From Acidobacteriaceae bacterium KBS 83 (lineage in GTDB: Bacteria > Acidobacteriota > Terriglobia > Terriglobales > Acidobacteriaceae), in NCBI GenBank assembly GCA_000381585.1, contig KB906734.1:682001-746000 (forward strand): a stretch of DNA of 64,000 bases, given 5' to 3'. A program made the translations under genes and the position numbers. Under the pieces are notes generated by a model. That model did not search any database and was not told where the DNA came from. It was given only the letters and a program-made list of their open reading frames with translations. Below are positions 21,545 to 58,694 of the stretch, in pieces; positions within the stretch are counted from its first letter, which is position 1; each line of letters opens with the position of its first letter.

Positions 21545-21646
21545 CAGCCAACCCGTCGCGGTTGCCGCCCGCCCACCTTGTTGCTAACGTGAAGAGAGCC
21601 GCAGCCCGTGTGCCTGCGGCCGCAGTCTCTGCGTCACAGGAGTGCC

Positions 21647-22660
21647 ATGCCGCCTTCCGCCTTGCCCATTGCGATCTATTACGAGCAGCCCAACTGGTTC
21701 AAGCCTCTTTTTGCCGAACTCGACCGACGCAGCGCCAGCTACGTCAAGCTGCACGCGCCCGACCACACCTTCGCGCCGGAGCAGCATCCCGAGCAGGAAT
21801 ACGCGCTGGTTTTCAACCGCATGAGCCCCTCGGCCTGGAACCGCGATCATGGCGACCAGATCTTCTACACTCTGAGCTTTCTCGATCACCTCGAGCGACG
21901 AGGCGTTCGCGTCATCAACGGCCTCAAGGCATTCCGTACCGAGCTATCGAAGGCCGCACAGCTCTCGCTGCTTGAAGACCTCGGTCTGCCCTATCCGAAG
22001 GCGCGCGTCATCCATCGCGCCGCACAGGCCACTTCCGTTACGGAAGGTCTCCGCTGGCCCGTCGTCGTCAAGCCGAACATCGGGGGCAGCGGCGCCGGCG
22101 TCAAACGCTTCGATCACCCAACGCAACTAGCCGCGGCCGCTGCGCAACCCGCCGGCACACCGGACGGACTTGCACTCGGCATGGATTCCACCGCGCTCGT
22201 ACAGGAGTTCATTCCTGCTCGCGAAGCGCACATCGTGCGCGTTGAGGTGCTGAACGGCCGCTATCTCTACGCCATCAAAGTCCACATCACCGGCGAAACC
22301 TTCGACCTCTGCCCGGCGGACATCTGCCGCACCACCAGCGGCGTTGAACTCAACCGCGCTGCATGCGCCATCGATGCCCCAAAGACCGGACTTCGCGTGG
22401 AAGGCTTCGAACCGTCGCGCGAAGTCATTGCTGACGTCGAACGCATCATGCAGCACGCCGGCATCGAGATCGGCGGCGTCGAATACATCACCGACGACCG
22501 CGACGGTCAGCGCCTCTACTACGACATCAACGCGCTCTCGAACTTCGTCGCTGACGGCGTCAACGTAGTCCGCTTTGATCCGTTCGCCAAGCTTGCTGAC
22601 TGGCTCGAAGCGGAAGCTGCCAAATCCTCGCGCATCCCCGAGCTGATTCATGGCCGATAG
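21647..22660 (+). CDS. RimK-like ATP-grasp ligase of unknown substrate
   Basis: This is a 337-residue ATP-grasp protein. An N-terminal preATP-grasp part (IAIYYEQPNWFKPLFAELD to about residue 95) is followed by WPVVVKPNIGGSGAGVKRFD. That segment gives the ATP-binding Lys and Gly-rich loop; LVQEFIPAREAHIVRVEVLNG and YDINALSNFV, with a metal-binding Asn, follow. The family joins carboxylates to amines (RimK, glutathione synthetase, D-Ala ligase). ATG 21647 follows ACAGGAG; a longer frame from 21608 is less likely. It overlaps the downstream monooxygenase by 11 bases, so the two proteins are probably made together. Confidence 0.78.
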   Translation: MPPSALPIAIYYEQPNWFKPLFAELDRRSASYVKLHAPDHTFAPEQHPEQEYALVFNRMSPSAWNRDHGDQIFYTLSFLDHLERRGVRVINGLKAFRTELSKAAQLSLLEDLGLPYPKARVIHRAAQATSVTEGLRWPVVVKPNIGGSGAGVKRFDHPTQLAAAAAQPAGTPDGLALGMDSTALVQEFIPAREAHIVRVEVLNGRYLYAIKVHITGETFDLCPADICRTTSGVELNRAACAIDAPKTGLRVEGFEPSREVIADVERIMQHAGIEIGGVEYITDDRDGQRLYYDINALSNFVADGVNVVRFDPFAKLADWLEAEAAKSSRIPELIHGR

Positions 22661-57306: not shown

Positions 57307-57321
57307 CAACCACATGGTTGA
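57306..57321. promoter_or_regulatory. Candidate ArsR operator 2
   Basis: TCAACC-ACAT-GGTTGA is a perfect 6-bp inverted repeat spanning the -10 edge and the arsR start codon. A dimeric winged-helix repressor bound here would block its own transcription. Confidence 0.6.
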
Positions 57322-57730
57322 GCAAACGCCACAGCGAAAATCGCCCGATCGGCTCGACGCCGTCTTCCACGCGCTCTCCGATCCCACCCGTCGGCTGATG
57401 TTGCGTTCCCTAGCTGGCGGCGACCGCACTGTCGGCGAGCTTGCCGCGCCCTTCCGCATGTCATTCGCGGGAGCCGCCAAGCACGTCAAGACGCTTGAGC
57501 GCAGCGGCCTTATCCGCCGCACCGTCCGCGGACGCACACACATCTGCCGGCTCGAACCCGCAGCACTCGCCAACGCAAACGCATGGTTCCGCTACTACGC
57601 GCGGTTCTGGGAGCAGAGTCTCGACGCGCTCGAAGCCGTGCTGCGCGAGGAAGACGCCGCCCGCGGCAAGCCTTCTCGCAAAGCGAGAAAACTTCCGCAG
57701 CAAAAGGATCGATTGAATGAACACCACTGA
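57314..57730 (+). CDS. ArsR-family winged-helix regulator
   Basis: This 138-residue DNA-binding protein starts AVFHALSDPTRRLMLRSLAGGDRTVGELAAPFRMSFAGAAKHVKTLERSGLIRRTVRGRTHICRL across about residues 16-80, a standard ArsR fold. No metal-binding Cys motif is present, so it is of the non-metal type often paired with SRPBCC (AHSA1) proteins. It overlaps the next gene by 14 bases. Twin operators and a leaderless promoter suggest autoregulation. Confidence 0.9.
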   Translation: MVEQTPQRKSPDRLDAVFHALSDPTRRLMLRSLAGGDRTVGELAAPFRMSFAGAAKHVKTLERSGLIRRTVRGRTHICRLEPAALANANAWFRYYARFWEQSLDALEAVLREEDAARGKPSRKARKLPQQKDRLNEHH

Positions 57731-58145
57731 GACGGCAACCTTGCAGGTCACGCGTAATTTTGACGCCAGCCCGGAGCGGGTCTTCGATGCGTGGTTAAAT
57801 CCCGACGTGGCGCGGCATTTTCTCTTCGCCACCCCCACCGGCCAAATGGTTCGCGTCGATATCGACGCCCGTGTCGGCGGCAAATTCGTCATCGTCCGCC
57901 GCACAGACGGCGATGATGTGGAAGACGTCGGAGCGTATCTCGCCATCGAGCGCCCCCCGGCGTCTCGTCTTCACATTCAGCGTCCCAAAGTTCTCGCCCA
58001 GGTCACACAGGTGACCATTGATGTTGTGCCTCACGGCCAGGGCTGTGTCCTTACGCTGACGCAGGAAGGCGTCCCGCCGGAGTGGGCGGAGCGCACGCAG
58101 GAAGGGTGGTGGCAGATTCTCATTGGCCTCGATCGCAGCCTGTAG
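57717..58145 (+). CDS. SRPBCC (AHSA1-like) domain protein, first of two
   Basis: This 142-residue START-like hydrophobic-ligand-binding domain has VTRNFDASPERVFDAWLNPDVARHFLFA at its N-terminus and EWAERTQEGWWQILIGLDRSL at the C-terminus. It overlaps arsR by 14 bases. The stop TAG is followed in the same frame by another open stretch (EYAEVIGTGEVRIVRVL) leading into a second SRPBCC domain without an obvious start. Such pairs usually serve unknown stress or ligand-sensing roles. Confidence 0.85.
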   Translation: MNTTETATLQVTRNFDASPERVFDAWLNPDVARHFLFATPTGQMVRVDIDARVGGKFVIVRRTDGDDVEDVGAYLAIERPPASRLHIQRPKVLAQVTQVTIDVVPHGQGCVLTLTQEGVPPEWAERTQEGWWQILIGLDRSL

Positions 58146-58184
58146 GAGTATGCCGAGGTCATTGGCACTGGCGAGGTACGGATC

Positions 58185-58694
58185 GTGCGCGTGCTCCCAA
58201 GTCCCATCGAGCGTATCTGGCAATACCTCACGGACTCAGAAAAACGCGGCAAGTGGCTGGCCACCGGACCCATCGAGCCGCGCGTGGGCGGCGCCGTACA
58301 GTTTCACTTCCTCAATGCCAGGCTGTCGCCGGAGCACGTGCCGCCACCGGAGAAATACAGCGATCATGAAAACCAATCGATGATGACCGGAGAGGTGCTC
58401 GAATGGCACCCGCCCACGCGACTGCGTTTCACTCGGAGCGAGCCGGGCGACCATTTCTCCGAGGCCACCTTCGATCTCTCACGGCAAGACGAGGACGTTC
58501 TGCTCGTCATCACTCATCGCAAGCTGCAAAACCGCAAGGCCATGGTCGGCGTCGCCGCCGGCTGGCATACGCATCTCACCATCCTCGAAGATGTGCTCCG
58601 GAGCCGCACGCCCGGCGCCTTCTGGAGGACATTCAACCCGCTGGAGGAGGAATACGAGCGGCGCGTCACGCCGGATGCCGAGCGATCGCGCTGA
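58185..58694 (+). CDS. Second SRPBCC domain, same frame as the first after an in-frame TAG
   Basis: This 169-residue domain has PSPIERIWQYLTDSEKRGKWLATGPIEPRVGG and GWHTHLTILEDVLRSRTPGAFWRTF at its ends. The earliest start after the TAG is GTG 58185, which would truncate the first beta strand (GEVRI). An out-of-frame ATG lies at 58150. It may be translated by readthrough, by reinitiation at GTG, or be the remains of a broken fusion gene. The full 57717-58694 stretch is one open frame except for the TAG at 58143-58145. Confidence 0.7.
   Translation: MRVLPSPIERIWQYLTDSEKRGKWLATGPIEPRVGGAVQFHFLNARLSPEHVPPPEKYSDHENQSMMTGEVLEWHPPTRLRFTRSEPGDHFSEATFDLSRQDEDVLLVITHRKLQNRKAMVGVAAGWHTHLTILEDVLRSRTPGAFWRTFNPLEEEYERRVTPDAERSR

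Follow-up and report, generated by a model that had tools for sequence, protein, structure and literature searches.

The window analysed here is a stretch of 64,000 nucleotides from Acidobacteriaceae bacterium KBS 83 (contig KB906734.1), and all positions refer to it unless another locus is named. On its forward strand, a gene for an ArsR-type helix-turn-helix regulator of 138 amino acids (57314-57730; Pfam HTH_20, 33.9 bits; HTH_5, 29.9 bits) overlaps with its 3' end the start of an SRPBCC gene by 14 bases. Translation from the ATG at 57717 to position 58694 yields 326 codons, and the only internal stop among them is the TAG at 58143-58145, which bears out the original prediction of a single frame broken only by this codon. 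The first AHSA1/SRPBCC domain (57717-58145, forward strand) comprises 142 codons and ends in the TAG, and the second (58146-58694, forward strand) comprises 182 codons followed by a stop and is free of internal stops and frameshifts. Each half matches PF08327 (AHSA1) over almost the full profile, with 64.4 and 62.8 bits against a curated cut-off of 22.1, and both are thus AHSA1-type members of the SRPBCC superfamily, as the two-domain arrangement proposed around the TAG implied. No NCBIfam family was found for either half in the window, nor for two of the fused proteins described below. The only other DNA match to 57314-58694 in the window genome was 34 bases long, and the genome also carries a weak paralogue of the first domain elsewhere (L042, 30% identity).

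The order ArsR, first (N) domain and second (C) domain was also observed in three genomes of the genus g277, which belongs to the same family (G610, G599 and G470). In these genomes the two SRPBCC domains are fused in one uninterrupted frame, whereas in the window the TAG interrupts it. Two of the fused open frames are 324 and 321 amino acids long, and the third (G470) passes the junction and reaches the edge of its contig; each lies behind an ArsR gene and shows 48-52% identity to the read-through frame of the window. Across the junction the three fusions have CTG-CAA, CTG-CAG and CTG-CAG in place of the CTG-TAG of the window, so that glutamine is present in three of three. The length of the linker varies by a few residues and the match between the TAG and the glutamine codons therefore rests on the shared leucine codon CTG. 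Homology of the second half greatly exceeds what chance would give, and it extends back as far as the first codon past the TAG in three relatives (L023, L024 and the stand-alone Cellvibrio gene, L010). The TAG is absent from all three fused relatives, and the window genome is the only one searched that has the stop; the conservation of the TAG that the original prediction proposed to look for was hence not found among them. Within the window genus, the single genus mate compared (85% complete) gave no match.

Because three related genomes keep an uninterrupted frame with glutamine at the position of the TAG, a nonsense mutation in a fusion gene, one of the origins proposed earlier, is supported. 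As judged from these alignments, a nonsense change in an ancestral fusion gene would be the simplest account of the TAG and is our best reading of it. A later fusion of two separate genes would also require the loss of a start codon, since the interval between the TAG and a GTG at 58185 holds no standard start.

Two differences were noticed at the regulator gene. The ArsR frame of the window is approximately 11-18 residues longer at its end than the ArsR proteins beside the fused genes in our alignments, and in G610 the overlap between the ArsR and SRPBCC genes is 4 bases (positions 1469-1472 of L023).

A second lesion, absent from the original prediction, was observed in the first domain. Frame 2 of positions 57955-57999 encodes the conserved strand PRRLVFTFSVPKFSP, which is identical at 13 of 15 positions to G016 in an ungapped tblastn alignment, among the matches listed, while the open frame encodes PPASRLHIQRPKVLA in its place. 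When the gene was aligned to a profile built from the other genes, with frameshifts allowed, a +1 shift was placed at 57957-57960 and one of -1 at 57997-57998, so that in the first domain approximately 14 codons (57957-57998) are out of frame between two shifts lying about 40 bases apart. Both shifts are located at runs of C, and together with tblastn the alignment delimits a compensated frameshift from the C-run at 57953-57958 to the C-run at 57997-57999 (57953-57999, forward strand). The net gain obtained by allowing frameshifts was 22.2 for the N-domain of the window and zero in all 12 of the other N-domain genes. For the C-domain the gain was zero in eight of ten genes, that of the window included, and 6.2 and 2.0 in the other two, where it arose at the extreme ends. 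These alignments were made without L042_N, L021_N, L091_Mart, L020_Smel, G294_C and G470_fusC.

The N-domain of the window scores 64.4 bits with PF08327 as against 88.4, 81.8 and 93.8 bits in the three N-type relatives scanned, and the C-domain with 62.8 bits falls inside the range of 57.1-69.1 bits of the five C-type relatives scanned. Departures from conserved columns, counted without L042_N, L021_N, L091_Mart and L020_Smel, were found at 5 of 27 columns in the N half of the window, three of the five lying inside the frame switch (12 other rows, 0-9 of 22-30), and at 13 of 54 columns in the C half (11 other rows, 0-16 of 49-54). In comparison with intact homologues, the gene thus carries more than one frame-affecting lesion, which is one mark of a pseudogene: the TAG and a frameshift pair that may disable the domain. 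The +1 and -1 shifts cancel, which leaves the frame of the N-domain open and the lesion hidden, and we count this against a reading of the locus as decaying. Nevertheless, the compensated frameshift makes decay or sequence error likelier than regulation.

The distribution of the two domains was surveyed at several levels. At E ≤1e-25 to the read-through protein, 9 of 398 genomes of the family were matched, the window's own included; the others are the three fusions, two genomes with an N-domain, in one case at a contig edge (G016) and in the other on its own (G657), and three with a C-domain alone (G294, G334 and G656). With a threshold of E 1e-8, matches were obtained in 19 of 300 genomes of the family, the 10 additional ones among these through the N-domain only. 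The fusion gene is present in three of the nine g277 genomes. A draw of 397 genomes from the order, which overlaps the family draw, gave no additional case, and among 396 genomes drawn from the phylum the C-domain was found in three and the N-domain in seven at E 1e-10, with the window genome counted in each. The N-domain gene of G016 (L026, positions 1-388) is cut by the contig end and no match to the window ArsR was found in the stretch examined.

C-type genes adjoining ArsR, with no N-type gene in the stretch examined, were observed in eight distinct loci: L008, L009 and L028 from the same family, Cellvibrio (L010), Opitutaceae (L011), Azospirillum (L019), Sinorhizobium meliloti (L020) and S. 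sojae (L089). In L090 and L091 a C-type gene is present and no ArsR match was found. The loci L008, L009 and L028 belong to genus g32, where the start codon of the stand-alone C-type gene is uncertain. N-type genes are located beside ArsR in L014, L016 and L035 and occur without it in L013, L026, L030, L031 and L037. The weak N-type hits with long frames in L037 and L035 were considered as further fusions and rejected, as their gene frames of 236 and 149 amino acids hold no C-type second domain. In Sinorhizobium meliloti (L020) and on a Rhizobium plasmid (L090) a second annotated SRPBCC gene comes after the C-type gene; at E 1e-4 it did not match the N-domain of the window. A C-type match was present in 54 plasmid records, five of which were examined. 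The original prediction had named relatives with two separate genes as the finding that would speak against it; each domain does occur alone elsewhere, but an N-type gene together with a separate C-type gene was found in none of the loci compared.

The descent of the parts was compared by identity and by trees. Among 11 ArsR proteins compared with that of the window, the three neighbours of the fused genes give the best matches (65-68% identity). The closest N-domains are those of the fused genus (53-60%) and of G016 (54%, or 62% without the switched stretch), and the C-domain is about equally close to the stand-alone Cellvibrio gene (46%) and to the fused genes (43-45%). The window and the fused genes do not group together in the C-domain tree, which we count against descent from the fusion, and in a C-domain tree with fewer rows the window was placed with the stand-alone Cellvibrio and Opitutaceae genes with support of 87/88. 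When the window and fused C-domains were held together, the AU test disfavoured the arrangement without rejecting it (p 0.066; 0.37 for the N-domain). The first trees included 14 of the 23 N-type loci and left out L018, L033-L040 and the weak C-type loci L004-L007, L021 and L032; the second left out L020, L091, L089 and L090 for the C-domain, and L042, L017, L016 and columns 81-98 for the N-domain. The trees neither prove nor exclude a shared descent of the fusion, with the C-domain leaning against it.

The second half retains the appearance of a coding sequence. Its codon use is coding-like (0.197 per codon, within the range of the window), and its 182 codons without further stop or frameshift are as expected if the domain is still used or was recently lost; the neutral bound set by this lesion-free state is a weak one that allows approximately 0.16 substitutions per site. 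The first in-frame ATG, GTG or TTG past the TAG is the GTG at 58185-58187 (forward strand), 39 bases after it, in agreement with the original prediction, and it is preceded at a distance of 8 bases by a Shine-Dalgarno-like GAGG (58173-58176, forward strand; duplex energy -7.2). An ATG at 58150 just past the TAG was rejected as a start because it is out of frame. A rare type of start, the ATT at 58161, has a Shine-Dalgarno-like score of -6.8; ATT is seldom used as a start codon.

The reading that we consider reasonably probable is that of a double-SRPBCC gene, derived from an ArsR-linked fusion, which is interrupted by a nonsense codon and is probably decaying. According to this reading, the ancestor would have been an ArsR-linked gene whose single product had two SRPBCC domains of the AHSA1 type. 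A glutamine codon in the linker, directly past the last helix of the first domain, would have become TAG by a nonsense change, and opposite one-base shifts about 40 bases apart would have altered a conserved strand of the first domain. Ribosomes would then end at the TAG and release a first-domain protein with one altered strand, and the second domain may be produced hardly or not at all, or to some extent from the GTG at 58185. We infer the direction from glutamine to stop, the reality of the mutations and the early stage of decay. The ordinary breaking of a gene, and not a new decoding trick, is the most likely explanation of the locus.

Gene fission, in which the second domain would be made as its own protein by reinitiation or internal initiation at the GTG at 58185 and the locus would form two coupled cistrons, is fairly unlikely. 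The lesion-free, coding-like second half would suit such an arrangement, as would the eight loci, L090 and L091 not among them, where a C-type gene stands alone beside ArsR. The GAGG site is also a good one, its score being matched or beaten at 3 of 49 predicted gene starts in the window, but those starts were set mechanically as the first start codon and are partly wrong, so that the comparison flatters the GTG site. When internal in-frame start codons were taken as the reference, 4.6% of 1104 (approximately 1 in 22) scored as well or better. The Opitutaceae gene shares the glutamate and valine residues that create the Shine-Dalgarno-like site and the GTG and has its own upstream ATG, and the GAGG and GTG need therefore not be an adaptation to the stop. 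Furthermore, the GTG corresponds to residue 14 of the second half, whose first long strand is formed by residues 10-17 (pLDDT 71 for residues 11-20) in an AlphaFold model of low confidence built from three sequences (mean pLDDT 51.6). Reinitiation as earlier proposed is thus possible at a good site, but the start would lie inside the predicted first strand and, in this weak model, would halve the strand and not wholly remove it as had been suggested. Fission also leaves the altered first domain unexplained. A more specific form, in which a fusion has been caught in the course of fission and a linker stop, with a strong ribosome site and a GTG no more than 40 bases beyond it, has given rise to two translationally coupled proteins, is in our view rather doubtful; fission, if true, would offer a small case in which the separation of two domains by one stop codon could be tested.

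It is improbable, too, that the oddities are sequence or assembly errors, with the shifts at the C-runs, and perhaps the TAG, absent in the organism and the gene an intact fusion. Runs of C are a usual place for base-calling errors, and both shifts are located at such runs, with the three oddities falling within about 190 bases. The assembly, however, is 99.33% complete in 21 contigs and the TAG is a substitution, not a change of run length. Ten genes of the window, namely neighbouring same-strand frames and two flanking genes, were also scanned. For nine of them the match covers the whole of a Pfam family or most of it, in a scan whose reach does not extend to small compensated shifts, and for the tenth (21608-22660) the match is weak and partial; in no case do a gene and its neighbour look like parts of the same family.

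Programmed or suppressor-mediated readthrough of the TAG, yielding a two-domain protein at a low ratio, is very improbable. The second half does lie in frame without a further lesion, and in PMC7918605 readthrough of in-frame stops in bacteria is argued from conservation, with the assumption that most bacterial readthrough events are without functional recoding. The stop is missing, however, in the three fused relatives. Among the 45 tRNAs called by ARAGORN in the genome none has a CUA anticodon; Rfam gives 46 hits, the remaining one being weak and uncalled. RF1 is present (538 bits against a cut-off of 423.25). TAG is moreover the commonest stop among the window genes predicted by a codon-use script, ending 19 of 50 with the N-domain frame included and 18 of 49 without it. 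No stimulatory RNA structure was found 3' of the TAG, where the sequence folds no better than its shuffles (z 0.48). Neither of the two marks by which programmed readthrough would be recognised, a stop conserved in relatives and a CUA tRNA or the absence of RF1, was thus observed. Readthrough is unlikely because TAG ends many window genes, RF1 is present and a CUA tRNA was not found, and this part of the original prediction has gained no positive support. Genome-wide reassignment of TAG was rejected on the same evidence from stop usage, RF1 and tRNAs.

With an interrupted and probably decaying fusion as the preferred reading, the locus illustrates how a lone in-frame stop can be judged, namely by uninterrupted relatives, by the tRNA and RF1 content and, above all, by a search for hidden lesions. 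The literature search found no paper combining SRPBCC, ArsR and AHSA1. In the window one in-frame stop breaks a conserved gene that is otherwise open, and the stop is shared by no relative. The stand-alone C-type genes of Cellvibrio, Opitutaceae, Azospirillum and Sinorhizobium meliloti (L010, L011, L019 and L020) resemble the window in their C-domain (32-46% identity) and in the adjoining ArsR gene, but each begins at a start codon of its own and lacks an upstream N-domain. The C-domain of the window matches by sequence an uncharacterized protein of known structure (PDB 2k5g, E 4.6e-34), whose chain of 191 residues is about the length of the C-domain alone. The g277 fusions share with the window the order of ArsR, N-domain and C-domain and differ from it in their uninterrupted frame, in the glutamine at the position of the TAG and in an N-domain without the frame switch.
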